Below, piece by piece: positions 1 through 15,073 of a DNA stretch of 39,066 nucleotides (its first letter is position 1; each line of letters begins with the position of its first letter). This DNA comes from Hyphomicrobiales bacterium. Its GTDB lineage: Bacteria; Pseudomonadota; Alphaproteobacteria; Rhizobiales; Xanthobacteraceae. The notes beneath the pieces are model-generated. The model worked only from the letters and a program-made list of their open reading frames with translations, made no database searches and was not told the origin of the DNA. A program made the translations under genes and the position numbers. The DNA lies in the NCBI GenBank assembly GCA_003152455.1, contig PMAF01000238.1, positions 767 through 39,832 on the forward strand, in the 5' to 3' direction.

Positions 1-514
1 AGATCTGGGCGATGACGTCGCCGTCGCCGGCGAGCAGCGACTTGGTCGAGCACATCTCGGCGCACAGCGGCAGCTTGCCTTCGGCCAGCCGGTTGGCGCC
101 GTATTTCTCGTACTCTTCCTTGCTGTTGTCGGCTTCCGGGCCGCCGGCGCAGAAGGTGCACTTGTCCATCTTGCCGCGCGAACCGAAATTGCCGACCTTG
201 GGATATTGCGGCGCGCCGAACGGACAGGCGTAGAAGCAATAGCCGCAGCCGATGCAGAGGTCCTTGGAGTGCAGCACCACCGCGTCCGCCGTGGTGTAGA
301 AGCAGTTCACCGGACAGACCGCCGCGCAAGGCGCGTCGGTGCAGTGCATGCAGGCCATGGAGATCGAGCGTTCGCCAGGCTTGCCGTCATTGATCGTGAC
401 GACGCGCCGGCGGTTGATGCCCCAGGGCACCTCGTGCTCGTTCTTGCAGGCGGTGACGCAGGCGTTGCACTCGATGCATCGGTCGGCGTCGCAGAGGAAT
501 TTCATTCGAGCCAT
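1..514 (-). CDS. fdhB: Formate dehydrogenase iron-sulfur (beta) subunit, 3'-truncated by window edge
   Basis: This subunit carries electrons from the molybdenum catalytic subunit through a chain of [4Fe-4S] clusters. The 171 visible residues contain four cysteine groups: Cys13/16/19/23, Cys55/58/63/67, Cys87/90/93/97, and Cys119/122 with Cys151/155. That arrangement matches the four-cluster beta subunits of membrane-linked or periplasmic formate dehydrogenases (FDH-N/FDH3 type). The ATG is preceded by a strong AGGAGG-like site, and the gene begins 11 bases after the stop of the catalytic subunit, so the two are in one operon. It has no Tat signal of its own; in this family the beta subunit is exported bound to the Tat-tagged alpha subunit. 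The reading frame is open to base 1, so the C-terminus, and any gamma (cytochrome b) gene after it, lie outside the window. Confidence 0.93.
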   Translation of the reverse strand, partial: MARMKFLCDADRCIECNACVTACKNEHEVPWGINRRRVVTINDGKPGERSISMACMHCTDAPCAAVCPVNCFYTTADAVVLHSKDLCIGCGYCFYACPFGAPQYPKVGNFGSRGKMDKCTFCAGGPEADNSKEEYEKYGANRLAEGKLPLCAEMCSTKSLLAGDGDVIAQI

Positions 515-525
515 GGTCCCGCCTC

Positions 526-3465
526 CTATGCCGCTCTGATCTGACAGAGGGTCGCTTTGGGTTCCTGCATGCCCGTCGCCGGGTCATAGCCGTAGGTCAT
601 GATCGTGTTGGCGCTTTCGCCGAGCACGTAAGGATCGGCGCCCTGCGGATACTTGCTGCGCAGGTCCTCGCCCTCATACCAGCCGCCGAAGTGGAACGGC
701 ATCCAGGCGACGCCCTTGCCGACCCGCTCGGTGACCAGCGCCTTCATCCTGGCCTTCGATGCATTTTCGGCGCCGGTGACCCAGACCCAACCGCCGTCCT
801 TGATGCCGCGGTCGGCGGCATCGGAGGTGTTGATCTCGATGAACATGTCCTGCTGCAATTCGGCGAGCCACTTGTTGGAGCGGGTTTCTTCGCCGCCGCC
901 TTCGTATTCGACCAGCCGGCCCGACGAGAGGATGAGCGGGAATTGCTTGACGATGCTCTTGTCGACCGCCGCCTTTTGCACCGTGAAACCGATATTGGGC
1001 AGCCGGAACTGCTTGGCATCGGGCAGCGTCGGATATTTACCGACCAGGTCCACCCGCGCCGTATAGATCGGCTCGCGATGCACCGGTATCGGATCCGGCA
1101 GGCCGAAGGCATTCATGCGCGCCTTGGCGTTGCCGTAGGGCACGCAGCCATGCTTCAGGGCGACCCGCTGGATGCCGCCCGAAAGATCGATCGACCAAGC
1201 CACCGCGTCCGGCGTGGTCGGGTTGATCTTGTTGATCACGGCCATCTCGGCTTCGGTCAGGTCCTTGTCCCAGGCGAGCTTCTTGAGGACGCCGAGGGTG
1301 AATTCGGGATAGCCGTCCTTGATCTCCGAGTCTTTGGAATAGGACCCGTCGGCCAGAAGGCTGACCTTCACGGTCGAGCCATCCGGCCGCTTCTCCTCGC
1401 GTTCCACGCCAAAGCGGGCGCGGAAACAGCCGCCGCCGTCCATGACGTTGAGATTGGTGTTGTAGAGCAGCGGGGTGCCCGGATGCTTGACCTCCGGCGA
1501 GCCCCAGCATGGCCACGGCAGGCCGTAATAATCGCCGCCGACCTCCGGCGTGTCCTTGGGCGCGCGCATGGTGACCAGGTCGAACGCGGCCTGGTTCTTC
1601 ATGTGCGCCTTGAGCCGTTCCGGCGACTGGCCGCAATAGCCGGTCGACCAGCTGCCACGATTCATCTCGCGCAGGACGTCCTCAGGAACCGGCGCGTCGT
1701 CCTCTATTTTGATGTTCTTGAACATCTTATCGGCGAAGCCGAGTTTGGCGGCCATCCGATAGATAATCTCGATGTCGTTCTTCGATTCGAAGATCGGCTT
1801 GACGATCTGCTCGCCCCACTGGATCGACCGGTTGGAGGCGACGCGCGAGCCTGACGCCTCGAACTGGGTGCAGACCGGCAGCAAGTAGGTGTTGTCCTTG
1901 CGGCCGCCATTCACCGCGAGCGAAGCCCAGGTGGTGGGATGCGGATCGGCTATCACCAGCAGATCGAGCTTTTGCAGCCCTTTCATCGACTCCGGAATGC
2001 GGGTGATGCTGTTGCTGGCGTGGCCTTGCACGAACATCGCCCGGACGTTGTCCTTCTGGGCGACCTGATCTTTGGGCAACAGAACCGCGTCAAACCAGCG
2101 CGTTAGCGGGATGCCGGGCGTCTCCATGTTGGTCTTCGACTCGAAGCGCGACTGCAGCCACGCGTAGTCCGTCTCCCAGACGCGCGACCAATGCCGCCAG
2201 GCGCCTTCGATCAGGCCGTAGTAGAACGGCAGCGTCACGATATCGAGACCGACGTCGGTGGCGCCCTGCACGTTGTCGTGGCCGCGGAAGATATTGGCGC
2301 CCTTGCCCGGACCGCCGACATTGCCGGTCAGCAGCAACGCAATGCAACTCGCCCGCACGTTGGCGGTGCCGACCGTGTGCTGGGTCTGGCCCATGCACCA
2401 GATCAGCGTCGACGGCTTCTGCGTCGCGAACATCTTGGCGACGCGCTCGAGTTGAGCGCCCGGAACGCCGGATACGCGCTCGACTTCCTCGGGCGTCCAC
2501 TTTTCTATTTCCTTGCGCGTGTCTTCGAAGCCGTAGACGCGCTGTTTGATGAATTCCTTGTCTTCCCAGCCATTCTTGAGGATGTGCCACATCATCCCGT
2601 AGAGCACCGGAATGTCGGTGCCCGGGCGGAGCCGAACGTATTCGGTGGCATGCGCGGCGGTGCGCGTCAGGCGCGGATCGATGACGACGACGTTCGCCTT
2701 GTTGAGTTCGGCGCCTTCAATGAGATGCTGCAGCGACACCGGATGGGCTTCGGCCGGATTGCCGCCCATGATGATCTGCGTCTTCGAATTCCGGATGTCG
2801 TTGAAGCTGTTGGTCATCGCGCCGTAGCCCCAGGTATTGGCCACGCCGGTGACGGTGGTTGAATGGCAGATGCGCGCCTGATGATCGGTGTTGTTGGTGC
2901 CCCAATAGGCGCCGAACTTGCGGAACAGATAGGCGCCTTCATTGGTCATCTTGGCCGAGCCGAGCAAATAGACGGAATCCGCGCCGGATTTCTCGCGGAT
3001 CGCCATCATCTTGTCGCCGATCTCGTTGATCGCCTGCTCCCACTTGATGCGGGTCCATTGGCCGTCGACGAGCTTCATCGGATATTTCAGGCGGCGTTCG
3101 CCCATCACCAGTTCGCGCACCGCAGCACCCTTGGCGCAATGCGAGCCGCGATTGATCGGCGAATCCCAACTCGGCTCCTGGCCGATCCACACGCCGTTGG
3201 AGACTTCCGCCGTGACGGTGCAGCCGACCGCGCAGTGCGTGCAGACGCTTTTGCGGATGGTGACCGTGGCGCCCTTGGCGGGCGGCGGACCGGCTTTGGC
3301 CTTTTGCACGCTGGCGAGCGGCAAGGCGCCGAGCACGGCGAGGCCGCTTGCTGCCAATCCAGACCGGCGCAAGAAGGTGCGGCGATCGAGGCCGTTGTCG
3401 GCTTGGCTGGCGAGGGCGGCAAGCGAGCCTTGGCGCGCCTGGCGTTCTTTTCTTTTGATCAGCAC
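526..3465 (-). CDS. fdhA: Formate dehydrogenase catalytic (alpha) subunit, bis-MGD molybdoenzyme, cysteine type
   Basis: Oxidises formate to CO2 at a bis-molybdopterin-guanine-dinucleotide Mo (or W) centre. The 979-residue protein starts with a twin-arginine signal (RRTFLRR, residues 28-34, followed by a hydrophobic stretch ending in AKA near 58). Next comes a [4Fe-4S] motif at Cys75, Cys78, Cys82 and Cys110. The metal ligand is Cys200 followed by His201 in the ARICHS segment, where E. coli FDH-N has selenocysteine, so this is a selenium-independent enzyme. Length fits the FDH-N/FDH3 alpha family. The start is GTG with GGAGG six bases upstream. It sits 12 bases after the small Tat-signal gene and just before fdhB. 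The Tat signal implies a periplasmic active site. Family assignment is firm; the physiological electron acceptor is not shown by this gene. Confidence 0.96.
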   Translation of the reverse strand: MLIKRKERQARQGSLAALASQADNGLDRRTFLRRSGLAASGLAVLGALPLASVQKAKAGPPPAKGATVTIRKSVCTHCAVGCTVTAEVSNGVWIGQEPSWDSPINRGSHCAKGAAVRELVMGERRLKYPMKLVDGQWTRIKWEQAINEIGDKMMAIREKSGADSVYLLGSAKMTNEGAYLFRKFGAYWGTNNTDHQARICHSTTVTGVANTWGYGAMTNSFNDIRNSKTQIIMGGNPAEAHPVSLQHLIEGAELNKANVVVIDPRLTRTAAHATEYVRLRPGTDIPVLYGMMWHILKNGWEDKEFIKQRVYGFEDTRKEIEKWTPEEVERVSGVPGAQLERVAKMFATQKPSTLIWCMGQTQHTVGTANVRASCIALLLTGNVGGPGKGANIFRGHDNVQGATDVGLDIVTLPFYYGLIEGAWRHWSRVWETDYAWLQSRFESKTNMETPGIPLTRWFDAVLLPKDQVAQKDNVRAMFVQGHASNSITRIPESMKGLQKLDLLVIADPHPTTWASLAVNGGRKDNTYLLPVCTQFEASGSRVASNRSIQWGEQIVKPIFESKNDIEIIYRMAAKLGFADKMFKNIKIEDDAPVPEDVLREMNRGSWSTGYCGQSPERLKAHMKNQAAFDLVTMRAPKDTPEVGGDYYGLPWPCWGSPEVKHPGTPLLYNTNLNVMDGGGCFRARFGVEREEKRPDGSTVKVSLLADGSYSKDSEIKDGYPEFTLGVLKKLAWDKDLTEAEMAVINKINPTTPDAVAWSIDLSGGIQRVALKHGCVPYGNAKARMNAFGLPDPIPVHREPIYTARVDLVGKYPTLPDAKQFRLPNIGFTVQKAAVDKSIVKQFPLILSSGRLVEYEGGGEETRSNKWLAELQQDMFIEINTSDAADRGIKDGGWVWVTGAENASKARMKALVTERVGKGVAWMPFHFGGWYEGEDLRSKYPQGADPYVLGESANTIMTYGYDPATGMQEPKATLCQIRAA

Positions 3466-3477
3466 GGGGTGCCTCCC

Positions 3478-3684
3478 TCAGCTCGGATAACGGTTGACGC
3501 GGTAATAGGTTTTCACCTCGGCGGAATCGGCTTTGTAGCGCACCTTGCGCTTTTCATCGTTGGTCTCCGAATCCGCTTTCGCCTCGGTCACAAGAGCGGC
3601 GGGCGCCACCGCTACACCGGCGCCGGCGCCGAGCACGCGCAGGAAGTTGCGGCGTGCCAGGTTGGCTTTGGGTTCTGTTGTCAT
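3478..3684 (-). CDS. Formate dehydrogenase region Tat-signal small protein (TIGR02811-like)
   Basis: A 68-residue protein made almost entirely of a twin-arginine leader (ARRNFLR at residues 10-16, hydrophobic core to about 33, AKA cleavage-like site) and a short charged tail ending in YYRVNRYPS. Small proteins of this kind are found directly before formate dehydrogenase catalytic genes and are known as the formate dehydrogenase region Tat target; their role is unresolved, with an accessory or small-subunit function the usual guess. The ATG chosen has AAGGAG eight bases upstream. A longer frame reaching 3918 is open, but it would overlap most of the C-terminal coding region of the TorD gene and lacks a comparable ribosome-binding site. 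It lies 43 bases after the TorD-like gene and 12 before fdhA, so it is part of the same transcription unit. Confidence 0.85.
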   Translation of the reverse strand: MTTEPKANLARRNFLRVLGAGAGVAVAPAALVTEAKADSETNDEKRKVRYKADSAEVKTYYRVNRYPS

Positions 3685-3727: not shown

Positions 3728-4504
3728 TCATTCGGACAGCGCGAACGCCTCCGATTCGATATCGATGAAAACCCGGCCGAGCGTACCGACGCGCCGGTAG
3801 AAATCCGCAGTCTCGGCGCGCTCGAGGTCGGTGAAGAAGCGGCCGAGCCAGGGCGCCAGATGCTTTTCGAACAATTGCCGGTCGGCGCCGGCCGGGGCCG
3901 GGAATTGCCCGCCGGCAATGCCCGACATGATCTCGCACAGGATGGCGGCGTGATCTTCCGATTCGTATTGCCCCTCGGCGCGCTCGATGCCGAGCGCGGC
4001 CAAATCCTCGCGCAGCCGCGCCAGCGGACGTTCGTGCAGGAACCCGGCGATGTAGTAGGAGCCGTAGGGCATCAACTCGCCGCGGCCGATGCCGATGAAC
4101 AAATTGAAGAACTCGCGCTCGATTTTGGTGGCATCGGCGTTTGCGGCCGCGTCGGCGAGGCCGACATGGGCCAAGCCCAGCGGCGTCGGGTCGCCGCGCA
4201 GCGTGGCCAGGCGTTGCAGGAATTCCGTATCCGGCGCACGCGACAGTAACGCCGCCAGCAGCGCGTATTCCTGCGCGCGGGCGAGATCCGTTTCATCGAC
4301 GCCGTTCGCCTGATTGTTCTCGTCGTAAAGGTCGGGCCGCAGGATCGCGCGCGCGACACCGGTTAACGCCTCGACGGTAAGCACCCGCTCGGCGGGGATG
4401 CGCGACCAATTCGAAACCGACGGTTGGGAGATTCCGATGCGGCGCGCAAGCTCGGTGACGCCACCGGCGGCGCGAATCGCTTCCTGGAGTCCCCGGTCCG
4501 GCAT
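3728..4504 (-). CDS. TorD-family molybdoenzyme chaperone with N-terminal helix-turn-helix domain
   Basis: The C-terminal part (about residues 72-250) looks like a TorD/DmsD-type chaperone: all-helical, with EFFNLFIG near 131-138 and a following LMPYGSYY stretch. TorD-family proteins bind the Tat leader and apo-form of a molybdoenzyme until cofactor is inserted; the obvious client here is FdhA. The first 60 residues are extra and resemble a Cro/CI or YdaS-type helix-turn-helix (VTELARRIGISQPSVSNW at 16-33), a DNA-binding fold. The 258-residue length fits a roughly 190-residue chaperone plus this domain. It is the first gene of the fdh operon, so autoregulation coupled to enzyme maturation is an attractive inference, but DNA binding is not shown. 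It is read as one continuous frame with no sign of a frameshift. Confidence 0.85.
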   Translation of the reverse strand: MPDRGLQEAIRAAGGVTELARRIGISQPSVSNWSRIPAERVLTVEALTGVARAILRPDLYDENNQANGVDETDLARAQEYALLAALLSRAPDTEFLQRLATLRGDPTPLGLAHVGLADAAANADATKIEREFFNLFIGIGRGELMPYGSYYIAGFLHERPLARLREDLAALGIERAEGQYESEDHAAILCEIMSGIAGGQFPAPAGADRQLFEKHLAPWLGRFFTDLERAETADFYRRVGTLGRVFIDIESEAFALSE

Positions 4505-4585: not shown

Positions 4586-4627
4586 GCTATCGCCAGGGAG
4601 AACGCACGGTCAATAGCCACAGGCTAT
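4586..4627 (-). promoter_or_regulatory. Candidate promoter and palindromic operator for the torD-fdh operon
   Basis: This lies in the 134-base gap between the DUF3306 gene and the HTH-TorD gene. On the minus strand a TTGACC (4613-4608) is followed after 16 bases by GATAGC (4591-4586), a possible -35/-10 pair predicting a start near 4579. Immediately upstream, touching the -35, is the perfect palindrome ATAGCC-ACA-GGCTAT (4613-4627). Its centre falls near -41 from that predicted start, a position typical of activators contacting RNA polymerase. TATAAGCC at 4625-4632 and its inverse GGCTTATA at 4553-4560 flank the region. The -10 match is weak; the palindrome is directly visible, but its binding protein is unknown. 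Confidence 0.4.
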
Positions 4628-4638
4628 AAGCCCAATCA

Positions 4639-5316
4639 TTATTTCGGGAGCGCGCCGCCATGCTCACGATGGGCAGACGGACGCAAGTCTTCCCGTTCTT
4701 CGGAATTATATTGCGTTGCAATATTATCTTCACTGCGCTGCATGGAATCTTTTTCGGCCGGCGCGAGCTCTTGCGTGGGCGCCGGTTGATCTTGCGGCGA
4801 CTGTTGCGTCCGCTCGGAACTAGTTGCCTGCGTCGAACTTTGTCCGGAGTGGCCCTCGGTGAGAGCGGCCTGCTGCGGCGACGCGGTTTGCTCCGGCTGC
4901 GGCGTGCCGATCATGTGCGCCAGCAGGTGACCCACCTCATCGGCGCTGATCGATCCGAAGCCAGGTATGCCGTTGGGATCGTTGAAATCCCAGCCATTCT
5001 CGACCAGCCCAATGAAGTCGCGGATCTGCGGATCGGCGGACCAAGCGCGACGAAGCGCCGCACGTGTGAGATCGGGCGGCACGCCGGGCCGGAGAAAGGC
5101 GCTTAGATCGGAACTGGCGCCGATCGATTCGATCGACGGCAGGCTTGCCGGATCGAATTGCGCTGCCGGGCGGGCGTCGACCGAGGTCACCGGCGCGGCA
5201 TCCGGCTCGTCCGAGCCGCCGGGCTTTTTTTGCGCCGCATCCGGCGCCGTTGCATCCGTCTCGGCGTCGTGTTTGCGCCGCGACCATCGTTCGAGGAAAT
5301 TTTCCGGCTCGCTCAT
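4639..5316 (-). CDS. DUF3306 domain protein, formate dehydrogenase accessory
   Basis: 225 residues. The recognisable core (about residues 55-140) contains the DUF3306 pattern: SLPSIESIGASSDLSAFL, then LTRAALRRAWSADPQIRDF, and FNDPNGIPGFG. The N-terminus (FLERWSRRK) is also typical of the family. The C-terminal 85 residues are rich in Gln, Ser, Thr and Pro and look disordered. No catalytic motif, signal peptide or membrane segment was seen, so it is probably cytoplasmic. The start overlaps the DUF3305 stop by four bases (ATGA), implying translational coupling. DUF3306 genes are regularly found beside DUF3305 and TorD genes at formate dehydrogenase loci, which points to a maturation or assembly role; the biochemical function is unknown. 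Confidence 0.8.
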   Translation of the reverse strand: MSEPENFLERWSRRKHDAETDATAPDAAQKKPGGSDEPDAAPVTSVDARPAAQFDPASLPSIESIGASSDLSAFLRPGVPPDLTRAALRRAWSADPQIRDFIGLVENGWDFNDPNGIPGFGSISADEVGHLLAHMIGTPQPEQTASPQQAALTEGHSGQSSTQATSSERTQQSPQDQPAPTQELAPAEKDSMQRSEDNIATQYNSEEREDLRPSAHREHGGALPK

Positions 5317-5831
5317 TGTTTGTCACCGTCGCGCGCGGGCACCCGTCGCGCCAGCGCTTCCGGGTCGATGCGATCGCGCTTGCGCTTCGCGAACGTGCGC
5401 TCGACATAGTGCTCGACAACGAATGCCGCAACCGCCTCTTGGATCGCCATCGGCATCGGCACGGTCTCGACCAGGTCGTTGCCGGCTTCGGTCAGGCCTT
5501 CGCCTTCGGCCGGGTCGGCGGTGACGGTGAGCAACGCATAGGGCGGATCGGTTTCGGTCGGCCGCAACGCGACCCAGAGCAAAGGCGCGCCGGAGGCGAG
5601 ATTCTCCTGATAGTAAGGCGTCTCGGTGCGATACAGCTCGATGTCGGCGACACCGGCGAAAAAAGTCGTGTGCTCGCCATCGTCGGAAAGCTTCGTCCAC
5701 GGCGCGGTCGCCGGGACACCGACGAGCACGCTGACCGGACGCCAGAGGAAGTCCGTCCACTGGCTCGTGCCCTTGGTTCGTTCGACGATCACGCCGACCG
5801 CAATGGTTTGCAACGGGCTTGCGATGCTCAA
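5313..5831 (-). CDS. DUF3305 domain protein, formate dehydrogenase accessory
   Basis: 172 residues, nearly all one domain of the DUF3305 type: an N-terminal strand region (IAVGVIVERTKGTSQWTDFLWRP), then VADIELYRTETPYYQENLASG and a C-terminal acidic/basic tail. No active site is apparent and there is no signal peptide. The start codon appears to be TTG, overlapping the previous stop as TTGA; no in-frame ATG or GTG precedes the conserved N-terminus. Its own stop overlaps the DUF3306 start by four bases. The DUF3305-DUF3306 pair is characteristic of formate dehydrogenase loci. A role in assembly of FdhAB is inferred from context only. Confidence 0.8.
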   Translation of the reverse strand: MSIASPLQTIAVGVIVERTKGTSQWTDFLWRPVSVLVGVPATAPWTKLSDDGEHTTFFAGVADIELYRTETPYYQENLASGAPLLWVALRPTETDPPYALLTVTADPAEGEGLTEAGNDLVETVPMPMAIQEAVAAFVVEHYVERTFAKRKRDRIDPEALARRVPARDGDKQ

Positions 5832-6835
5832 CTGACCGCCTCCAGATGTCTTATCGGCAGGCCGGTGACCAAGTTCTGCGGCTTCAACCGGATGGTCTTG
5901 TCATCGGTCATGGCCAGGATCAGATAGACCGGCTCGCCTTTGACCTTGTCGAGCACGACCGATGGATCGCGGAAGGTGAGCGCGAACAGCCCGATCACCT
6001 TCGACATGGCCGCCTCGTCAATGTCGCCCTCTTTCCAAAGCCGATCGCCGATCCGGGTGGCGTCGGCATCGAGCCCGACATACCAGCTGAGCGGTGCGTC
6101 GCGCAGCTCGGTGAGCGGCTCGATCGTCACCTCGACGCCGAGCACATGCGCGATCCAGCGCCGCATCGCCTCGGCCAAAGCCACCAACCCGGCGCGACCG
6201 CCGGTCAGATCGAGCGCCATGTCGAACCGGTCGCTGCGCTCCCAATAGCTTTCGGCGTTGCTGTCGTTGATGACGTCGATCTGCGCTTCGGCCGGAATAC
6301 CCAACATCGACACCAATGGCGTCACCGGCGAGGTATTGACGCCGCCGATGGTCTCTTCATCGGCCGCCAGCAATGAATTCTCGTGCATGGTCACGCGCTG
6401 GGTACGGAAGAACAGTTCGGCCGCGCGCACCACATGGGCGTCGGTCACGCCGTCGAGCGCGTTGCGCAGAATCACGTGCGCCAGCTGATTGACGAACAGC
6501 GGCGGCGTATGACCGAGACCGCGCCGCACCAGATCGGCATAGGCGGCTTCCAGCGTCTTGTGGCGCAGTAGCTGGTCGCGGAAATCGACCAGCATTTGCC
6601 AGTTCTCGCGCGCGTCCGCGTCAGCAATCGCCGCGATGTCGGATGCGGCGACCGGCATACGCGGATCGGCGAGCAGCGCAGCATGCAGCGTCTTTTCGAC
6701 CGCGCAGGCCTCCGGCGGCGGGATCAGCTCCGGCCGCGCCAGATAAAGCTTCAGGAACTCGTCGGTCACCTTGAGGCCGCCGCCTTCGTCGCGGTCGAGC
6801 AGGTGATGGCCGCAGGAGAGCCAGAAGTCGTTCAT
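5828..6835 (-). CDS. DUF6352 family protein
   Basis: 335 residues, function unknown. The start is distinctive (MNDFWLSCGHHLLDRD), followed by a helical N-terminal half (to about 190) and a mixed C-terminal half ending in the TIRLKPQNLVTG strand. Cys8 with His10 and His11 near the N-terminus could bind metal, though this is only a visual impression. No signal peptide or membrane segment is seen, so the product should be cytoplasmic. It is coupled by 4-base overlaps to DUF6505 upstream and DUF3305 downstream. I recognise it as the family that sits with formate dehydrogenase accessory genes in Hyphomicrobiales. A role in maturation or electron delivery is contextual inference. Confidence 0.72.
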   Translation of the reverse strand: MNDFWLSCGHHLLDRDEGGGLKVTDEFLKLYLARPELIPPPEACAVEKTLHAALLADPRMPVAASDIAAIADADARENWQMLVDFRDQLLRHKTLEAAYADLVRRGLGHTPPLFVNQLAHVILRNALDGVTDAHVVRAAELFFRTQRVTMHENSLLAADEETIGGVNTSPVTPLVSMLGIPAEAQIDVINDSNAESYWERSDRFDMALDLTGGRAGLVALAEAMRRWIAHVLGVEVTIEPLTELRDAPLSWYVGLDADATRIGDRLWKEGDIDEAAMSKVIGLFALTFRDPSVVLDKVKGEPVYLILAMTDDKTIRLKPQNLVTGLPIRHLEAVS

Positions 6836-7371
6836 TTGCGCTCCCGTTCGGCCAAGCCGACCAGATCGACGGTTTCGCCGGGCGCATCATCCTCACCCTC
6901 GACCTCGAGGAAGGAGAACGCCCGCGCCGGCTTTTGCCCCTCGCGCGGGCGCAGCGTGCGAAAAGTCTCCCGCACTTCGCCATTGTCGAACGAGCGATGC
7001 ACGGCCACCAGCGTGTCGCGCGGCTGGCTGCAGAGCGATTCCGCGAAGGCGACTTCCTCTTCCGCCGCGGCGCGTGCATCGGCAACCGTGGGCGCGCCGA
7101 AATTCGCGACCAGCTGTTTTGCCAGTGTGTCGATAACCGCCAGCCGATCGTCTTCGCTCGCCTCCACGATCTGCACCAGCGTCGACCAGCCGAGCGAGGC
7201 GACGCCGAGAAAGCCGCCGCGAAAGGCCGAGCGCGCCTTGCCTTCCAGCGCCGACGGATCGCGATCCCAGAACACGAAGGCGCCGGACACCGCCCATTCG
7301 CCCGGCTCGGCCGCCTTCTCGAACACGAAGGTGTCCGAAACGTCGAGCCGGATGGTGCGCAACAGCTTCAC
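6832..7371 (-). CDS. DUF6505 family protein
   Basis: 179 residues, function unknown. The N-terminal third (LLRTIRLDVSDTFVFEKAAEPGEWAVSGAF) is predicted as beta strands; the middle (LGWSTLVQIVEASEDDRLAVIDTLAKQLVANFGAPT) is helical; the C-terminus is charged and probably flexible. No catalytic residues could be assigned. The start is GTG, overlapping the preceding stop as GTGA, and the stop overlaps the DUF6352 ATG. This makes it the second gene of the five-gene coupled unit. The family is known to me only as a companion of DUF6352 and the biotin/lipoate-ligase-like gene; no activity is established. Confidence 0.7.
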   Translation of the reverse strand: MKLLRTIRLDVSDTFVFEKAAEPGEWAVSGAFVFWDRDPSALEGKARSAFRGGFLGVASLGWSTLVQIVEASEDDRLAVIDTLAKQLVANFGAPTVADARAAAEEEVAFAESLCSQPRDTLVAVHRSFDNGEVRETFRTLRPREGQKPARAFSFLEVEGEDDAPGETVDLVGLAERERK

Positions 7372-8120
7372 GACCGCGGTCCTTTCGCCACTGGATCGAA
7401 CCAGGCAGGCGCCGCGAGCTTCGGCAAAAACTTCTTGCGCTCGACTTGCGTCTTGCCCATGCGGCGGATCAGCAGGTCACCGTTCTCGTCGATGTCGCGG
7501 CGCGCTCCCTGCTCCGCCGGCAGCCGCTCCAGATAACTGCGCGCGACCGCGCCGAAACCATGCTCCTGCCAGGCATCGAGCGCGACCATGAAATGGCGGG
7601 CAAAACTCTCCAGCACCTGGTCGGACATGGCGTCGGAGAAGCCCTCTTCCTCCAGCGCGGTGACCAGCGGATTGAGACCCGGCTCCGTGCCGCTCATCGA
7701 GACCGTTCGGATCATGGCGCCGAACACCAGCCAAAGCGGGGTTTCGTCCTCGGGCGTTCCTTTCGGCCAGGCCAGCCGGCCGCCGCCCACGGTGCCGCGA
7801 TTGACCGAGATCGTATCCGGCCAGTCGATGGTGATGGCGGTTTCCGGTTGCGCGTTGGCGGCGAGCGCGTCGGCCAGCGCCGCCATGCCGGCATAGAAAG
7901 CGCGGCGCGCTTGCGCCAGCGGCTCGTCCGGCTCCAGCACCACGGCGAATTCGGCGAGATCGAAGCGCCCGACATAGACCAATGTGCCGGCGCCCCGCTC
8001 AGGCGCGACCGATATTGCATGCGCGAAGGCGTCGCCCAATTCGCGCAGGCGCACCAGCGTGAACGGCGGCGGCAGCGTCAGTTCCGGCTCGAGCGGGCTT
8101 GCCCGCGTCTCCAGCGCCAT
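7368..8120 (-). CDS. Biotin/lipoate protein ligase-like protein lacking the usual catalytic lysine
   Basis: 250 residues with the layout of the biotin/lipoate A/B protein ligase fold followed by a small C-terminal domain (from about 215). In biotin ligases a WPND segment is followed by a lysine (Lys183 in E. coli BirA) in KxxGIL; that lysine contacts the acyl-adenylate. Here WPDT at 100-103 is followed by GTVGGG at 109-114, with Thr110 where the lysine should be. The RG-rich adenylate-binding loop is also not obvious. It may therefore not be an active ligase and may have been recruited for another role. There is no biotinyl or lipoyl carrier domain among its neighbours. It is the first gene of the coupled accessory unit, with AGGA upstream of the ATG. 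Confidence 0.78.
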   Translation of the reverse strand: MALETRASPLEPELTLPPPFTLVRLRELGDAFAHAISVAPERGAGTLVYVGRFDLAEFAVVLEPDEPLAQARRAFYAGMAALADALAANAQPETAITIDWPDTISVNRGTVGGGRLAWPKGTPEDETPLWLVFGAMIRTVSMSGTEPGLNPLVTALEEEGFSDAMSDQVLESFARHFMVALDAWQEHGFGAVARSYLERLPAEQGARRDIDENGDLLIRRMGKTQVERKKFLPKLAAPAWFDPVAKGPRS

Positions 8121-8136
8121 TGATCCTGTTACTTTC

Positions 8137-8155: not shown

Positions 8156-8275
8156 TAGGCTTGAGTAGGTCCCGAAGCCAGTCCCGCGGCTTCGAGGGTT
8201 AAACGCGGAACCGACGCCATAGGCGGCCTTTCGCCGTCAGAATGCGGGCCCGCGAAGAAAAGGTCACGGAGCCGG

Positions 8276-10300
8276 ATGGCCGAACGGCCGCGCAATATCC
8301 TGATCTGTTCCTGCGACGACACGATGCCGCTCGATGGCGAGGCGGCGGCGCGCGTCTGCCGCGGCGCGGATGTCATCGAAGGCCGCCAGCTTTGCCGCGC
8401 CGAACTCGAGCGCTTTCGCAAATTAGCGGCCGGCGGCGCACCGCTCACCGTGGCCTGCACGCAGGAAACGCCGCTGTTCGAGCAAGTCGCCGGCGAACTC
8501 AAGGGCGCCGGACCGCTAAGCTTCGTCAATATTCGCGAAACCGCTGGCTGGTCGAAGGATGCCAAGGCAGCCGGTCCGAAAATGGCGGCGCTGCTCGCGG
8601 CCAGCGCCGAGCCGGCGCCGGACGTCGCCTTCGTTCCGCTGACCAGCGACGGCGTGACGCTAATTTACGGCAAGAACGAACAGGCGATCGAAGCCGCCAG
8701 GCTGCTGAAGGACCATCTCGACGTCACCGTGCTGATCAAGCCGCCCGCCGACGTCGCGCCGCCGCGCGCGACCGATTTCCCCGTCGTGAAGGGCACCATC
8801 CGGCAGGCCAAGGGCTATCTCGGCGCTTTCGAGCTGACGGTGGACGACTATGCCGCGCCCACGCCGTCCTCGCGCAGCGAACTCGTGTTCGGGCCGGCGC
8901 GCAACGGCGCCACGTCGCGCTGCGACATCGTGCTTGATCTGTCGGGCGGCGCGGCGCTGTTTCCGGCCGCCGATCTGCGCGACGGTTACCTGCGCGCCGA
9001 TCCGGGCGATCCGGCCGCCGTGTTGCGCGCCGTACTCAAGGCGCGCGATCTCACCGGCACGTTCGACAAGCCGCGCTACATTACCTTCACCGAGGATCTG
9101 TGCGCGCATTCGCGCTCCAAGATCGTCGGCTGCCGCCGCTGCCTCGATCTCTGCCCGACCGGCGCGATAACGCCGAACGGCGATCACGTGGCGATCGACG
9201 CGCAGATTTGCGCCGGCTGCGGGCAATGCGCCGCCGCCTGCCCGACCGGCGCCGCGGCCTACGCGCTGCCGCCGTCCGACGCGCTGCTGCGAAACTTGCG
9301 CGCGCTGCTCGGCGCCTACCGCGAAGCCGGCGGCCGGCAGGCCGTGGTGATGTTTCACGACGCCGCGCACGGCGGCGAGTTGATCGACGCGCTGGCGCGG
9401 CACGGCGACGGCTTGCCGGCGAACGTACTGCCGGTACAAGTCAACGAAGTGACGCAAGTCGGACTGGAAGCGGTGGCGGCGGCGTTTGCCTACGGCGCAT
9501 CGGCGGTGCGGTTTTTAAACCGGGCGAAGCCGCGCCACGATCTCAGCGGCCTCGCCAAGACCATTGCGCTGGCGCAGCCGATCCTTTCCGGTCTCGGCTT
9601 TGCCGGTGAGCGCGTCGCGGCGATCGATACCGACAATCCGGATGCGCTCGGTAGCGCTTTGCGCGCCATCGCGTCGATGGACGCCGCTCCCAAGCCCGCC
9701 ACCTTCGCGGCCGCCGGCCTCAAGCGCGACGTGGTGCGGCAGGCGCTGCGCGAACTGCATGCGGCGGCGCCCGCGCCGGCCGATATCGTCATGCTGCCGC
9801 AGGGCGCGCCGTTCGGCACCGTCGAGGTCAATGTCGAGGGCTGCACGCTGTGTCTGTCGTGCGTCTCGGCCTGCCCGACCGGCGCGCTGTCGGACGATCC
9901 CGAAAAGCCGATGCTGCGTTTCGCCGAGGACGCCTGCGTGCAGTGCGGGTTATGCAAGGCGATCTGCCCGGAAAAGGTCATCAGCCTGAAACCGCAGATC
10001 GATTTCCGCGCGGCGACCGCATCGAGCCGCGTCATCAAGCAGGAAGAGCCGTTCGATTGCATCCGCTGCGGCAAGCCGTTCGGCGTCAAGAGCTCGGTCG
10101 AGCGCGTGGCCGCCAAGCTGGAAGCGTCGCACTGGATGTTCGCGAATTCCAAGAAGCGGCTCGACGTCATCAAGATGTGCGCCGACTGCCGAGTCTCCGC
10201 TATGGCGGAGGAGAAATTCGATCCTTTCGCCGGGCCCAAGCGCCCGGCGGTGCGCACCACCGACGATTACCTGCGCGAGCGCGAGCAGAAGGGGGAATAA
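8276..10300 (+). CDS. Multi-cluster 4Fe-4S electron-transfer protein of the formate dehydrogenase locus
   Basis: 674 residues, soluble, with no signal peptide or membrane helix. Four ferredoxin-type cysteine groups are visible: Cys276/286/289/293 (the first spacing is unusually long), Cys312/315/318/322, Cys523/526/529/533 and Cys554/557/560/564. CxxC pairs at 595/598 and 635/638 may supply another cluster or a zinc site. The N-terminal 270 residues contain Cys11 and Cys13 (ICSCDD), Cys28, Cys40 and Cys61 and are not a domain I can name. The segment about 350-460 between the two ferredoxin pairs is alpha/beta. The ATG follows a GGAG-containing site. Being divergent from the accessory unit, it is probably co-regulated. 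It could pass electrons between formate oxidation and a cytoplasmic partner, or serve in cluster delivery; both are inference. Confidence 0.85.
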   Translation: MAERPRNILICSCDDTMPLDGEAAARVCRGADVIEGRQLCRAELERFRKLAAGGAPLTVACTQETPLFEQVAGELKGAGPLSFVNIRETAGWSKDAKAAGPKMAALLAASAEPAPDVAFVPLTSDGVTLIYGKNEQAIEAARLLKDHLDVTVLIKPPADVAPPRATDFPVVKGTIRQAKGYLGAFELTVDDYAAPTPSSRSELVFGPARNGATSRCDIVLDLSGGAALFPAADLRDGYLRADPGDPAAVLRAVLKARDLTGTFDKPRYITFTEDLCAHSRSKIVGCRRCLDLCPTGAITPNGDHVAIDAQICAGCGQCAAACPTGAAAYALPPSDALLRNLRALLGAYREAGGRQAVVMFHDAAHGGELIDALARHGDGLPANVLPVQVNEVTQVGLEAVAAAFAYGASAVRFLNRAKPRHDLSGLAKTIALAQPILSGLGFAGERVAAIDTDNPDALGSALRAIASMDAAPKPATFAAAGLKRDVVRQALRELHAAAPAPADIVMLPQGAPFGTVEVNVEGCTLCLSCVSACPTGALSDDPEKPMLRFAEDACVQCGLCKAICPEKVISLKPQIDFRAATASSRVIKQEEPFDCIRCGKPFGVKSSVERVAAKLEASHWMFANSKKRLDVIKMCADCRVSAMAEEKFDPFAGPKRPAVRTTDDYLREREQKGE

Positions 10301-10303: not shown

Positions 10304-10407
10304 GTCATTCCGGGGCGCGTGCGGAGCGCGCGAACCCGGAATCCATAACCCCAGCGCTGCGGAGTATGGATTCCGGGCCCGGCGCTAACGCGCCGTCCCG
10401 GAATGAC
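10304..10407. repeat. Dispersed palindromic intergenic repeat (104 bp) of the Bradyrhizobium-group type
   Basis: The outer arms GTCATTCCGG (10304-10313) and CCGGAATGAC (10398-10407) are perfect inverse complements. An inner pair of arms (CCCGGAATCCATA and TATGGATTCCGGG) surrounds a short GC-rich centre, so the element can form a long hairpin or cruciform. Repeats of this composition are very common between genes in Bradyrhizobium, Rhodopseudomonas and relatives. It lies between two convergent genes and could act as a transcription stop or mRNA stabiliser. Its right arm overlaps the last codons and stop of the cytochrome gene. No second copy was found in the window. Confidence 0.85.
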
Positions 10408-11686
10408 GAGGAGAGACCGTCGCCCGCTCCAAAAACTCCACCAGCGCCTGGCGCTCTTGCGCCGAGCCGATTTTCTGCTCCGGCATTTTGGTGCCGGGCG
10501 TGTAGGCCATCGGGCCGACCTCGAACATTTTCGCCACCGTGTCCGGGGTCCAGACAATGTTCATATGCTTGAGCGCGTCCGAATAGCGGTAGCCCGGCAG
10601 CGACGCGATCTTGCGCCCGAAAATGCCGGCAAGGCTCGGGCCGGCCTTGTTGCCTTCGCCGGACGACAGCGTGTGGCAGGCGACGCAAGCGCGAAACACC
10701 TGCGCGCCAGGGTCGCCGGCGTAAGCGGCCAGCGGATCGTCGGGCGCGCCGACCACCACCGCGCCGATCGGCTCGCCGGTCAGGGCGTCCCAGCGGCGGA
10801 TGGTGCGATCGGCGCCGCCGGTCAATAAAGTGTGGCCGTCGGGAAAAAACGCCACCGACCATACCGGCAGGCCGGGGCCGACCAGCGTGTGGCCGAGCTT
10901 GCGGGCCTGGCGCTCGATCACCGCGACCGAGCCGCGGATGCCGGCGGCGGCAATGAGCTCGCCGTCAGGCGAGATCGCGAGCGCGATCACCGGCGTTGCG
11001 GAGGCCTGCAATTCGCCGCGCGGCTCGCCTTGCGGCGACAGGAAATAGACCTTGCCGTCGGCGCCGGCCGCGACGATCTCGCCATCGGGCGCGATGACGA
11101 CGGCATTGAGCGGCGTCGGCAGGTTGTGAATGCTGACGCCGCCGTCGGCGAGGCGCCAGATGCGTAAGCTGGCGTCGTAGCCGGCGCTGACGAGTTCGCC
11201 GCCGCCGGGCGAGAACGCCACGCCGTTGACGTTCTGGCTATTGCCTTCCAGCACGCGCGGCGCGCCACCGGCGAGCGGCCACAGCCGGACGGTGCGATCC
11301 CAGGACGCCGAGGCCAGCCACTTGCCGTCGCCCGACACCGCCAGGCCGGCGATCGGGCCGCTGTGGCCGTCGAGCACCGTGTCGGGATCGGGCTTACCCG
11401 GCGTCCAGATCGCGATATGCGCGTCGGCGCCGGCGGTGACGATGCGGCCGTCCTTGAGCCACGCGACCGCATTCACCGCGTTGTCGTGGAACCGCATCAC
11501 CTGTTCGGCGACGTTGCGCGTCAGCGACCAGCGGATCGCGGAACTGTCGAAGCTGCCCGATATGGCTTGGCTGCCGTCGGGCGAGACGACAAGCGCGCGC
11601 ACCGGCCCGCCGTGGCCGCGCAATTGCGCCTGGGCCGCGGATGAGAGCGCGGCCAACAACAGCACAACGCAAAATCGTCTACTCAT
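10385..11686 (-). CDS. Secreted WD40-repeat/cytochrome c fusion protein
   Basis: 433 residues. A Sec signal (hydrophobic residues 6-18, then AQA-Q) is followed by about seven WD40-type repeats between residues 23 and 305; examples are LASASWDRTVRLW and LLTGGADRTIRRWD. A class I cytochrome c domain follows, with heme attachment at Cys334-x-x-Cys337-His338 and a likely axial Met401 in GTKMPEQ. The product should be periplasmic, where it could accept electrons from formate oxidation, with the beta-propeller acting as a docking surface. The ATG overlaps the end of the MoeA-fusion gene by eight bases, so it is in that operon. The last residues and stop (from His428) lie inside the palindromic repeat. 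Partnership with FdhAB is inferred from location. Confidence 0.88.
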   Translation of the reverse strand: MSRRFCVVLLLAALSSAAQAQLRGHGGPVRALVVSPDGSQAISGSFDSSAIRWSLTRNVAEQVMRFHDNAVNAVAWLKDGRIVTAGADAHIAIWTPGKPDPDTVLDGHSGPIAGLAVSGDGKWLASASWDRTVRLWPLAGGAPRVLEGNSQNVNGVAFSPGGGELVSAGYDASLRIWRLADGGVSIHNLPTPLNAVVIAPDGEIVAAGADGKVYFLSPQGEPRGELQASATPVIALAISPDGELIAAAGIRGSVAVIERQARKLGHTLVGPGLPVWSVAFFPDGHTLLTGGADRTIRRWDALTGEPIGAVVVGAPDDPLAAYAGDPGAQVFRACVACHTLSSGEGNKAGPSLAGIFGRKIASLPGYRYSDALKHMNIVWTPDTVAKMFEVGPMAYTPGTKMPEQKIGSAQERQALVEFLERATVSPRHSGTAR

Positions 11687-13670
11687 CCGATGGTTTCATC
11701 CCGAGCGCTGCGATGCGCGCGCGCATCGCGGGTTCGCGCAAGGCCGCGAGGAATGCCCGCACCGCCGGCCGCTCCATGCGGCTTTCAACCAGCAGGAAAT
11801 CGTAATGTTCCGGCGACAGCGGCAGGAAGCCGAGGCCGTAGAGCTTGGCCACCGGTTCGATAGCGACGCCCCAGTCGGCGCGAGTTTGCGCGATCGCGGC
11901 AGCCACCGCATTGTGCGACTTCGGCTGGTTGGCGTAGCCGGGCGGCCGCGCGCCGGCGAGCAGTCTGTCGACCAGCACGCGGGTGCCGGAACCGGCATTG
12001 CGGTTGACCATCAGCGCGGCGTTATCGGCCAACGCGCCTTTCAGCCCATCGTGCGCGCTGCGGCCTTCGAAGCGCTTGTCGCCGCGGCGAAAGAGAATGC
12101 CCTGCATGCGCTGCCAGCCGCGCACCAGGCGCAGGCCCGGCGCCGCCAGATGCACATTATACTCGCCGCTCGCCGGATCGATCAGGTGCACCGGCGCGAT
12201 GTCGCATTCGCCGCGGCTGGCCGCCGCCACGCCGCCGAGGCTGCCGACCGCCAGCGTGCGGGCGGAAAAGCCGCGTTCCGCCAGCGCACCCACCACCACA
12301 TCGAGCGCCACGTCGTGGCTGCCCATGATGACCAGATCGGGCGCATGCGCGGCGCTGCCGATCAACGTCACATCCACGACGCTGCCGGCGTCGAGCGATG
12401 AGGCGAGCGCGTCGATCTCGAGAAAGCCGTCGGCCTGCGAGAAGCTGGTGACCGAACCGGAGCCTTTGCCGGTCGGAAAGGCGACGGTGCCCTCCTCGCT
12501 TTCGATCAGCGACACCAGCACGAATTCCTTGCGGCCAAGCTCGGAGGCAATCCGCACCGGCACCCGCGCGGCGATCGTCTCCGCGGCTTCCGGCGGCAGC
12601 CCGGCGCGGGCACGGATTACCGGCGCGACGAAAGCGTGGAACGTAAAGATCGCCGAGGTCGGAAAGCCGGGCAGCACCACGATCGGCTTTTCGCCGATCA
12701 CGCCGAGACAGAGCGGCTTGCCGGGCTTGAGCGCGACGCCGTGCACCAGGATGCCGGGTTTGCCGAGCCGCGAGACCACGCCATGCGACAGATCGCCGGC
12801 GCCTTTCGAGGTGCCGCCGGAAAGCACCACCATGTCGCTTTGCGCCAGCGCCTCACGCACCGCCTTTTCCAGCGCCGCCGCGTCGTCGGGAAAGGCGCCC
12901 AGGCTGAGCGGCTCGCCGCCGGCTTCCGTTACAGCGGCCGCGATGATCGCGCCGTTGCTGTCATAGACACCCGCCGGCTTGAGCGGCGCGCCGGGCGCAA
13001 CGAGTTCGTCGCCGGTCGACAGCACCGCCACTTTCGGCCGCCGCACCACGTCCGCCTGGGAAAGGCCGCAGGCCGCCAGCATGCCGATCTCGCGCGAGCC
13101 GATGCGCGTGCCGCGCCGCAGCAGCGTCTCGCCGCGCGCGATGTCGGAGCCGGCGTAGGAAATGAATTGCCCGGGCGCGGCGGCACGGCGCAGTTCGATG
13201 CTTGCCGAGCCGTCGGCCGTCAGCTCGGTCTGCTCGATCATCACCACGGCGTCGGCGCCGCGCGGAATCACGCCGCCGGTCGCGATCGTGGCGGCGGTGC
13301 CGGGTTTCACCTCCAGCGTCGGCGCATCGCCGCAGGCGATCACCTCGGCATTGAGCCGGAAGATTCTTGGCGCGGTGTCGCCGGCGCCGATGGTGTCGAT
13401 AGCCCGAAGGGCAAAGCCGTCCACATTGGAGCGGTCGAACGGCGGCGCATCGACTGCCGCCACTACATCGTACGCGAGCACGCGCGTCAGCGCACCGGCG
13501 AGCGGCACCGTCTCGGCCGGTAGCGGCGACAGATCGAGATGCCGCTCGAAGCGCGCGCGCGCCTCTTCCGCCGACACGACGTCGAGGAATTGCTCCTGGC
13601 GCGCGGCCGCCCGCACGCGCGCGAGCAGATCGGCATCGGCGTCCGGCTTCGCCCGGCGTTGCTCGCTCAT
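11679..13670 (-). CDS. moeA: MoeA molybdopterin molybdotransferase fused to a periplasmic-binding-protein-like domain
   Basis: 663 residues in two parts. Residues 25-435 are MoeA, the enzyme that inserts molybdate into adenylylated molybdopterin. Its motifs are intact: PPFDRSNVDGFA (76-87), TGGVIPRGADAVV (131-143), STGDEL (218-223), SGGTSKG (284-290) and LPGFP (333-337). Residues 445-663 form a substrate-binding-protein-like domain (PF12727 type) with no signal peptide, so it acts in the cytoplasm; ligand sensing or metal-oxyanion handling has been suggested for such fusions but is not established. The ATG at 13670 was preferred to an upstream one because it forms an ATGA overlap with the preceding stop and precedes the conserved region. 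Beside fdh genes it probably makes cofactor for FdhA. Confidence 0.9.
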   Translation of the reverse strand: MSEQRRAKPDADADLLARVRAAARQEQFLDVVSAEEARARFERHLDLSPLPAETVPLAGALTRVLAYDVVAAVDAPPFDRSNVDGFALRAIDTIGAGDTAPRIFRLNAEVIACGDAPTLEVKPGTAATIATGGVIPRGADAVVMIEQTELTADGSASIELRRAAAPGQFISYAGSDIARGETLLRRGTRIGSREIGMLAACGLSQADVVRRPKVAVLSTGDELVAPGAPLKPAGVYDSNGAIIAAAVTEAGGEPLSLGAFPDDAAALEKAVREALAQSDMVVLSGGTSKGAGDLSHGVVSRLGKPGILVHGVALKPGKPLCLGVIGEKPIVVLPGFPTSAIFTFHAFVAPVIRARAGLPPEAAETIAARVPVRIASELGRKEFVLVSLIESEEGTVAFPTGKGSGSVTSFSQADGFLEIDALASSLDAGSVVDVTLIGSAAHAPDLVIMGSHDVALDVVVGALAERGFSARTLAVGSLGGVAAASRGECDIAPVHLIDPASGEYNVHLAAPGLRLVRGWQRMQGILFRRGDKRFEGRSAHDGLKGALADNAALMVNRNAGSGTRVLVDRLLAGARPPGYANQPKSHNAVAAAIAQTRADWGVAIEPVAKLYGLGFLPLSPEHYDFLLVESRMERPAVRAFLAALREPAMRARIAALGMKPSDE

Positions 13671-14785
13671 GGCCACGGCCTTACCAAAACCTGCGAACCG
13701 GCGGGATAACCTTCGCTGTCCGCCGGCACCAATGTCCATCCGTCGGAACCCGCCAGCGACGACAGCGACAGATATTTCGTCGCCAGCGGCTCGACGTTAT
13801 CGCCGCTCCGGCGCACCGGAACGACTGCGGCGAGGCCGACGGTGGAAGTGACTTTGCGTGCGAGCGTGGCCGTCATCCCCGGTTCATGATCGCGGCCGCC
13901 GGTGAGCCGCGCGAGCATACGCCGCCCGGCCACGAGCCAAACGCTCAACGCCGCGTCGAGCCGCCCCGGCAGCAGCAGCACGGGCCGCGGACCGGCAAAA
14001 CCGAACGCGGCGGTTTCGCCGGGCGAGAGCGCCATGCCATGCGCGACCAGGCGGCCTTCGCGCGTGAGCGTCTGCACACTCGTGTCGTTGCGCCCTTGGC
14101 CGGTGCCGCCGATGGCGACGATGGCGTCCACATCGTCCCTTGCGAGCGCGGTCGCGAGCTTGCAGCCACAATCGGCGCGGTGTGCCGCCCCGCCACGACT
14201 CTCGATGTCGCCGCCCATTAACCCGACGGCGGCATCGACGACATCGCCTTCACGCAGCGGCAAAACCATGATGCGCGGCTCACGCACAGAAACACGGGAA
14301 ATACCGGCAGCGGCGAACACCGCGCCATCGAGCGAACGCAACACGTCACCCGCACGTCGCAGCGGCGTCTTGCCGTCGCAATCCGCGCCCGCCGGCAGCA
14401 CGCCGTCGCCCGGATTGACCGCGTCGAGCGCCTCGGCGCGGCCGCCGGTCACCCTCACCGCATCGAACGCCACCACGCAGTCGGCGCCGGGCGGCATCGG
14501 CTGCCCGGCCTCGACGCGCTGCGGCATTGCGGGCAGCAGCACGGGCGAATAGCCGCCGGCGCCGAGCGTGGTGTCGGCCGCTAGAGCCCAGCCATCGAGA
14601 ATGGCAATCGGCGCCTTCGGCAACATCGGCGCCGTGACATCGGCCGCCAGGACACGCCCCGCGCCCAGGCGCAGTTCCACGCTGCGCGCCGCGACCGGCT
14701 TCACCTCCCGGTCGATCAACGCCAGCACTTCGGCGAGCGGCGTCAGCCTCGCGATGGTCTGTATCGTCTCGGACGCCGCTGCCAT
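13667..14785 (-). CDS. Degenerate MoeA-like molybdopterin-binding protein
   Basis: 372 residues with the MoeA layout but altered signatures. The usual SAMDGYA-like loop reads IAILDGWALA (60-69), the SGGxSxG loop reads IGGTGQGRND (225-234, closer to the GGTG of MogA/MoaB proteins), and LPGxP reads LPGRLDA (273-279). The PPGAD segment is kept (98-102). It is therefore a molybdopterin-binding relative that may bind cofactor without standard MoeA catalysis, perhaps as a carrier or partner of the fused MoeA encoded next. The stop overlaps the start of that gene (ATGA). The ATG lies only 57 bases from the divergent tusA-like start. Confidence 0.82.
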   Translation of the reverse strand: MAAASETIQTIARLTPLAEVLALIDREVKPVAARSVELRLGAGRVLAADVTAPMLPKAPIAILDGWALAADTTLGAGGYSPVLLPAMPQRVEAGQPMPPGADCVVAFDAVRVTGGRAEALDAVNPGDGVLPAGADCDGKTPLRRAGDVLRSLDGAVFAAAGISRVSVREPRIMVLPLREGDVVDAAVGLMGGDIESRGGAAHRADCGCKLATALARDDVDAIVAIGGTGQGRNDTSVQTLTREGRLVAHGMALSPGETAAFGFAGPRPVLLLPGRLDAALSVWLVAGRRMLARLTGGRDHEPGMTATLARKVTSTVGLAAVVPVRRSGDNVEPLATKYLSLSSLAGSDGWTLVPADSEGYPAGSQVLVRPWP

Positions 14786-14842
14786 ATTCCGGTACTTGAC
14801 CTTGTTGCGGTGAACTTATTCAGTCTACCCCAACGAGGCGGA

Positions 14843-15073
14843 ATGCGCATGACTGAAACCACCATGAACCTGCGCGGCCTGAAATGCCCGCTGCCGACGC
14901 TGCGGGTGCGCAAAATGCTGTCGAGCCTGAAAACCGGCGACCTGATCGTGGCGGAATGCACCGATCCGCTGACCGCGATCGACATTCCGAATCTGCTGCG
15001 GCAGACCGGCGACACGCTGGAAGGCAACGCGGAAGCCGGCGGCGTGCTCAGTTTCCGCATTCGCAAGAAGTGA
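14843..15073 (+). CDS. TusA-family sulfur carrier protein
   Basis: About 76 residues with the sulfurtransferase signature GLKCPLPTLRVRK, in which the Cys of CPxP carries persulfide sulfur. TusA proteins pass sulfur for tRNA thiolation, molybdopterin or other acceptors; formate dehydrogenases need a sulfido ligand on Mo, so this copy may serve FdhA sulfuration. The start is ambiguous: a GTG at 14810 is in frame but has no ribosome site, whereas ATG at 14843 or 14849 follows GAGG (14835-14838). A TTGACC at 14796-14801 could be the -35 of its promoter. It ends ten bases before the convergent alcohol dehydrogenase gene. Confidence 0.85.
   Translation: MRMTETTMNLRGLKCPLPTLRVRKMLSSLKTGDLIVAECTDPLTAIDIPNLLRQTGDTLEGNAEAGGVLSFRIRKK

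Follow-up and report, generated by a model that had tools for sequence, protein, structure and literature searches.

Five overlapping genes beside a formate dehydrogenase

Why should five overlapping genes, four of which encode domain-of-unknown-function (DUF) proteins, accompany the genes of an exported formate dehydrogenase (FDH)? The question is raised by a 39,066-nucleotide stretch from a Hyphomicrobiales bacterium (GenBank contig PMAF01000238.1, positions 767 to 39,832), hereafter the window, in which five minus-strand genes between positions 8120 and 4639 stand next to torD and the FDH genes fdhXAB. Our survey of genomes and homologous loci strongly supports dedication of the set to one type of the catalytic subunit FdhA, and the products are probably soluble cytosolic accessory proteins that mature this single FDH type before its twin-arginine translocation (Tat) export. 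The five genes are:

7368..8120, minus strand: protein of the biotin protein ligase (BPL)/lipoate-ligase fold, PF16917 (BPL_LplA_LipB_2), 250 residues, Pfam 201 bits, without the ligase loop and the presumed catalytic lysine (BPL-like)
6832..7371, minus strand: DUF6505 protein, PF20115, 179 residues, Pfam 187 bits, GTG start inside a 4-base overlap
5828..6835, minus strand: DUF6352 protein, PF19879, 335 residues, Pfam 211 bits, ATG start inside a 4-base overlap
5313..5831, minus strand: DUF3305 protein, PF11749, 172 residues, Pfam 134 bits, TTG start inside a 4-base overlap
4639..5316, minus strand: DUF3306 protein, PF11748, 225 residues, Pfam 85 bits, ATG start inside a 4-base overlap

An earlier note, made from the sequence alone, had named these families and described four stop/start overlaps. 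Pfam, with cut-offs of 24-27 bits for these five families, assigns all five names, and the coordinates of the open reading frames (ORFs) agree with the described genes and junctions, each of exactly 4 bases (GTGA at 7368-7371, ATGA at 6832-6835, TTGA at 5828-5831 and ATGA at 5313-5316). In homologous loci a start codon is available at the same 4-base position in 68/85 BPL-like/DUF6505, 67/82 DUF6505/DUF6352, 50/86 DUF6352/DUF3305 and 76/94 DUF3305/DUF3306 junctions, compared with only 3/92 at DUF3306/torD; such a codon is no proof of start use, and many of the loci come from close relatives (Bradyrhizobium, Methylobacterium), so that these counts are not independent. Because the overlaps recur in relatives as far as DUF3306 and rarely beyond, the coupled unit ends at DUF3306, where the earlier note had ended it. 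Of the 75 loci holding all five genes, 70 share this order, with every one of the four overlaps present in 31 of them. The earlier note read the coupling as a sign of stoichiometric production and possibly of a single complex; no gene fusion joining any of the five turned up in the fetched loci. Judged from these sequences, the overlaps are more than chance.

Dedication to one type of FdhA

A fixed sample of 200 genomes from the phylum was searched for DUF6352, DUF6505, DUF3305 and FdhA, the last at a threshold of E <= 1e-150 (weakest match 2.8e-285). DUF3305 and FdhA occupy an identical set of 22 genomes, and DUF6505 (15 genomes) and DUF6352 (nine) fall entirely within it; neither DUF6352 nor DUF6505 was found in the 178 genomes lacking FdhA. 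PF16917 as a whole is widespread (120/200 genomes), and its strong matches (>=165 bits) are confined to 14 genomes, all inside the DUF6505 set. The next best match (95.9 bits, genome G016) was considered as an fdh-type protein and rejected, being an ordinary BirA with a BPL_C domain, the loop and the lysine.

A second sample of 140 genomes from the order, which shares some genomes with the first, gave a similar picture; the P values given below ignore phylogeny. Here FdhA is present in 53 genomes and DUF3305 in 58, including all 53, while FdhA accompanies DUF6352 in 43/46 genomes and DUF6505 in 44/46. The DUF6352 (3/46) and DUF6505 (2/46) genomes without FdhA are assemblies only 71-84% complete. 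Altogether the exceptions are G208, G250, G302 and G223 (67-84% complete) and G292 (94% complete). G292 holds DUF3305 only, with no FdhA of the type described below found despite its completeness.

Physical linkage is not the whole reason for this co-occurrence, because unlinked copies still share a genome with FdhA: in G016, fdhA is ~280 kb away from DUF6352 and ~380 kb away from DUF6505; in G019, a distance of 2.8 Mb separates it from DUF6352 on a 4.4-Mb contig. The proposal in the earlier note that the set is dedicated to a formate dehydrogenase is therefore upheld in both samples. DUF6352 or DUF6505 frequently present without this FdhA would have spoken against it, and we found none in 178 phylum genomes and a few cases in incomplete order assemblies.

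The FdhA in question is encoded downstream of the five genes:

526..3465, minus strand: FdhA, catalytic subunit, with a twin-arginine signal and the motif QARICHST; nearest solved relative 9VAP chain A

It matches 9vap_A with 1205 bits over residues 25-978, and the Cys of QARICHST occupies a putative selenocysteine site, to which we take it to be equivalent. The solved relative, SoFdhAB of Shewanella oneidensis, is described in the available text as an oxygen-tolerant FdhA-FdhB dimer with a Cys-ligated tungsten (PMC13397495). By its sequence relation and the Cys at the selenocysteine position, the window FdhA is classed as SoFdhAB-type.

A modular set

A contig scan with a DUF6352 alignment returned at least 543 relatives, of which the best 80 (>=48% identity, leaning to close relatives) were kept; the nearest named relatives of the window DUF6352 are Pseudolabrys metagenome-assembled genomes at 78% identity. 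Neighbourhoods were counted in the 55 loci with >=8 kb flanking DUF6352 on each side, leaving out the other 25, and each ORF received its best label from profiles built for this analysis. All 55 full loci contain FdhA, FdhB, FdhX, DUF3305, DUF3306, TorD and a polyferredoxin, and most also contain DUF6505 (54), BPL-like (52) and a WD40-cytochrome c protein (46). Across the 22 FdhA genomes of the phylum sample the set is less uniform, with DUF6505 in 15, BPL-like in 14 and DUF6352 in nine, and gene orders of the cluster differ between lineages. The idea of a five-gene unit thus holds for the recurring order and overlaps and fails as a general description: the set is modular, its core being DUF3305/DUF3306, to which BPL-like plus DUF6505 form one addition and DUF6352 another.

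Species of Methylorubrum and of Bradyrhizobium are among the carriers of the cluster. Bradyrhizobium erythrophlei GAS478 has it in two rearranged copies on different contigs (L121, L124), with all labelled genes on one strand and no BPL-like or WD40 label. At locus L114 (10001-12195), one of the 80, DUF6352 has no fdh-cluster genes within 10 kb to its left, nor in the 4.5 kb that remain to its right before the contig end; mobB comes after it and then, on the other strand, a MobA-like gene.

Probable maturation before export

Hydropathy reveals no membrane span in any of the five window proteins (best 19-residue value 1.31); they also have no CxxC or CxxCH motif and, as judged by hydropathy and a scan for RR pairs, no export signal, no signal-peptide program having been used. 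In contrast, FdhA and FdhX both show RR followed by a hydrophobic stretch, the twin-arginine motif. With no span, redox motif or export signal, the most likely place for the five proteins to act is the cytosol, ahead of FdhA export. The neighbouring TorD has a PF02613 domain beside its target, as NarJ/TorD maturation proteins do, and carries the TorD label in 55/55 full loci.

FdhD and FdhE are dedicated accessory proteins for exported formate dehydrogenases that contain the bis-molybdopterin guanine dinucleotide (bis-MGD) cofactor. FdhD was present in 22/22 FdhA genomes (80/200 overall), and FdhE (PF04216) was found in none of these 22, the E. coli control being detected. FdhE occurs in 24 of the 178 genomes without this FdhA. 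Five families (f1, f2, f14, f26 and f34) include both FdhA genomes and FdhE genomes, with no genome carrying both, and within the 80 FdhD genomes the exclusion reaches p 1.3e-4, without phylogenetic correction. In Pfam searches PF04216 matches none of the five window proteins.

A further clue comes from NCBIfam model NF011058 (MobA-DUF3305), which matches the window DUF3305 at model positions 219-368; the MobA-DUF3305 link derives from the model name and this partial match. This model, the mobB and MobA-like genes at L114 and the MoeA, TusA and TorD neighbours jointly point to bis-MGD handling.

We propose that the five proteins would prepare a Cys-ligated FdhAB(C), a relative of SoFdhAB, ahead of Tat export. 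The most likely step would be cofactor loading, in which apo-FdhA, bound by TorD, would receive bis-MGD that MoeA/MobA have produced and FdhD has sulfurated. DUF3305 with DUF3306 would form the general part and may take the place that FdhE has in E. coli-type systems. BPL-like and DUF6505 would constitute a second module, with the BPL fold serving as a binding scaffold and not as a ligase; the third would be DUF6352. The two add-on modules were presumably gained in particular lineages. The cofactor-loading role, the replacement of FdhE and contacts of the five with FdhA or each other are what we infer. The earlier note had offered a shared maturation or electron-transfer complex, and of these maturation would fit best.

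Several observations weigh against this proposal. First, DUF6352 is missing from 10/53 and DUF6505 from 9/53 order genomes with FdhA, so neither is generally essential, and in 5/58 order genomes with DUF3305 no FdhA was detected, one of them (G292) being 94% complete. The neighbours of the unlinked DUF6352 and DUF6505 in G016 and of DUF6352 in G019 gave no functional hint. Second, across the full sample of 200 genomes FdhE and FdhA exclude each other only weakly (p 0.05, uncorrected for phylogeny), and the pattern may merely reflect which FDH type a genome carries. Moreover, all TorD-fdh species are stated to possess fdhD/fdhE in trans in the available part of Bay et al. 2015 (PMC4464133). That statement about fdhE conflicts with our 0/22, the species sets being different (PMC4464133, available part). 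Third, DUF3306 does have an RR pair at residue 13, but without a hydrophobic stretch. Fourth, structural models of DUF6352 (predicted local distance difference test score, pLDDT, 88.4; predicted template modelling score, pTM, 0.88; 54 sequences) and DUF6505 (pLDDT 88.5, pTM 0.77, 49 sequences) gave no Foldseek match in the PDB at E <= 0.001; no fold therefore supports a cofactor role, a negative from one aligner that may miss distant folds. Lastly, a literature search by name, mostly without full texts, turned up no experimental work on these proteins.

Other comparisons of these proteins were likewise negative. DUF6352 has no sequence relatives in the PDB up to E 10, and the same search gave chance-level rows for DUF6505 (best 0.077), DUF3305 (0.32) and FdhX (0.39). 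Profile alignment with hhalign detected no relation between DUF6505 and DUF3305, DUF6505 and BPL-like, DUF6352 and DUF6505, DUF6352 and BPL-like, or DUF6352 and a single TorD sequence. Neither DUF6352 nor DUF6505 was mentioned by name across 5.39 million papers searched, and six family accessions likewise gave no papers.

Alternative explanations

The best surviving alternative, which we nevertheless consider unlikely, is that the set determines whether tungsten or molybdenum is selected or supplied, or shields the cofactor from oxygen, instead of loading it. A MoeA with a PBP-like domain and another MoeA are encoded close by, and the nearest solved relative of FdhA is the Cys-W, oxygen-tolerant enzyme (PMC13397495, available text). 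In M. extorquens, a MoeA1-MobB-FdhD route supplies the tungsten enzyme MeFDH1, according to the accessible part of that report (PMC13197769). However, MeFDH1 belongs to another FDH type, the accessible part of that report mentions none of these families (PMC13197769), and the five proteins show no resemblance to metal-binding proteins, save for conserved His and Cys residues in DUF6352 (H10, C44, H51 and H230, in >90% of rows).

That the five serve the working enzyme as subunits or electron carriers, in a shared electron-transfer complex, is improbable. Their strict neighbourhood with fdhAB and the polyferredoxin, and the translational overlaps, would suit such a complex, and the polyferredoxin is itself a possible electron carrier. 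The absence of CxxC, CxxCH and membrane spans from the five disfavours this role, whereas FdhA has its twin-arginine motif, and SoFdhAB is described as a two-subunit FdhA-FdhB dimer (PMC13397495, available text). The electron-transfer part of the earlier proposal accordingly receives no support from hydropathy or motifs.

We hold it very unlikely that BPL-like is an active biotin/lipoate-type ligase modifying FdhA or a partner. It does fit the family profile of biotin/lipoate ligases (PF16917), and it matches PDB 3bfm_A (E 2.3e-15), a solved relative titled biotin protein ligase-like. We take the Gly-rich GRGRxGR loop to be a functional motif of such ligases and the lysine before WPN to be their catalytic residue. 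Aligned with the BirA-type sequence L088 of G016, four fdh-type sequences (P0001, L091, L084 and L076) lack the GRGRQGRNW loop through a deletion and have D, D, Q and Q in place of the KWPN lysine, and none of 38 BPL-like sequences has a lysine before WPN, some having R or H. With both motifs lost, we expect the protein to be without ligase activity.

Equally hard to credit is hitch-hiking of the five genes in a conserved operon, with co-occurrence arising from linkage and whole-cluster transfer: most copies are indeed linked, but the unlinked copies in G016 and G019 co-occur with FdhA and gene orders vary by lineage.

A helix-turn-helix domain on TorD and a candidate operator

A second feature of the locus concerns torD and the gap between it and the five genes:

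3728..4504, minus strand: TorD-family chaperone, PF02613 (Nitrate_red_del, 95.7 bits), with an N-terminal Cro/YdaS-like helix-turn-helix (HTH) domain at residues 6-62
4613..4627, no strand: dyad ATAGCCACAGGCTAT, ATAG-N7-CTAT, candidate operator of torD-fdhXAB in the 134-base gap between DUF3306 and torD

ATAGCCACAGGCTAT is the only copy of ATAG-N7-CTAT in the window, where 0.03 are expected. An N-terminal HTH is present in 56/95 TorD ORFs of the fetched loci, and a dyad of the form ATAG-N5-10-CTAT lies <=200 bases from the torD frame start in 44/56 loci with HTH-TorD versus 0/39 without the HTH. For ATAG-N7-CTAT itself, 45 sites are near torD and 11 elsewhere. Twelve HTH loci lack an exact dyad; their best copy differs from it by one mismatch in three loci and by two in nine, figures that have no chance control. 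Parsimony on a tree of FdhA from 89 loci (both features in 39, the HTH only in 12, neither in 38) counts seven changes for the HTH and six for the dyad. Scans for sigma-70 promoters and terminators at 4480-4700 and 8050-8330 found nothing, and a literature search on a TorD-HTH regulator returned nothing relevant.

ATAG-N7-CTAT is possibly the operator of a self-regulating HTH-TorD chaperone. Among the 11 sites away from torD, two lie 117 bases before the WD40-cytochrome c frame, in L112 (4672) and L116 (4792), and one 19 bases before the BPL-like frame, in L120 (120). These three placements suggest a small regulon.

Taken to its full extent, the model would be an FdhE-independent maturation machine for the Cys-type oxygen-tolerant FDH, in which the pseudo-ligase, DUF6505, DUF6352 and DUF3305/DUF3306 pass bis-MGD to apo-FdhA, while TorD acts as a DNA-binding sensor of unfinished FdhA and sets torD-fdhXAB transcription via ATAG-N7-CTAT. 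We offer this combined model tentatively, as one that may well be wrong, and have lowered our confidence in it slightly because PMC4464133, in its available part, reports fdhD/fdhE with TorD-fdh operons.

Other genes of the window

The remaining neighbours are as follows:

2..514, minus strand: FdhB-like ferredoxin subunit, running off the window edge; named by eye, with four CxxC in the visible part
3478..3684, minus strand: FdhX-like short Tat protein (TIGR02811, 41 bits, under its 48.45 cut-off; FdhX label in 55/55 full loci)
8276..10300, plus strand: polyferredoxin with Fer4 repeats, divergent, 674 residues, a conserved neighbour
10385..11686, minus strand: protein with WD40 repeats and a cytochrome c domain, a neighbour in 46/55 full loci
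11679..13739, minus strand: MoeA with a PBP-like fusion partner (cofactor metal insertion family)
13667..14785, minus strand: second MoeA-like protein
14810..15073, plus strand: TusA-family sulfurtransferase

The two MoeA-type genes, one with the PBP-like fusion, stand in tandem at 11679-14785. The WD40-cytochrome c protein could be a periplasmic electron partner of the formate dehydrogenase.

Implications and comparison with known systems

Maturation is an obstacle to making metal-dependent formate dehydrogenases in foreign hosts, according to the title of PMC13396061. Should the five proteins turn out to be the helpers so far missing for oxygen-tolerant enzymes of the Cys type, they would be a practical tool for expression hosts, and the proposal, if true, would give functions to four DUF families. 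If the pairing of HTH-TorD with the dyad is real, it would represent a chaperone reporting enzyme maturation to its own promoter.

Compared with the FdhD/FdhE system of E. coli-type respiratory formate dehydrogenases, the window system has the FdhD family in common and differs in that FdhE was not found (0/22) and five other proteins are present. With SoFdhAB it shares the FdhA type; the available text on that protein describes the enzyme alone, with no accessory genes (PMC13397495).

MeFDH1 of M. extorquens is a cytosolic enzyme. Its MoeA1-MobB-FdhD route resembles the scheme proposed here in being a late cofactor-assembly pathway reserved for a selenocysteine-free formate dehydrogenase, and differs in the FDH it serves and, in the accessible part of the report, in naming none of the five families (PMC13197769).

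A further counterpart is provided by the TorD-fdh/DmsD-fdh operons. The available part of their description makes no mention of BPL-like, DUF6505, DUF6352 or an HTH on TorD, and terms DUF3305 and DUF3306 putative membrane proteins (PMC4464133), whereas hydropathy shows no such span in the window copies. Shared between those operons and the window, as far as the available text goes, are the core of DUF3305 and DUF3306, a TorD/DmsD chaperone, a Tat peptide, fer4 and fdhGHI, all within a single operon (PMC4464133).

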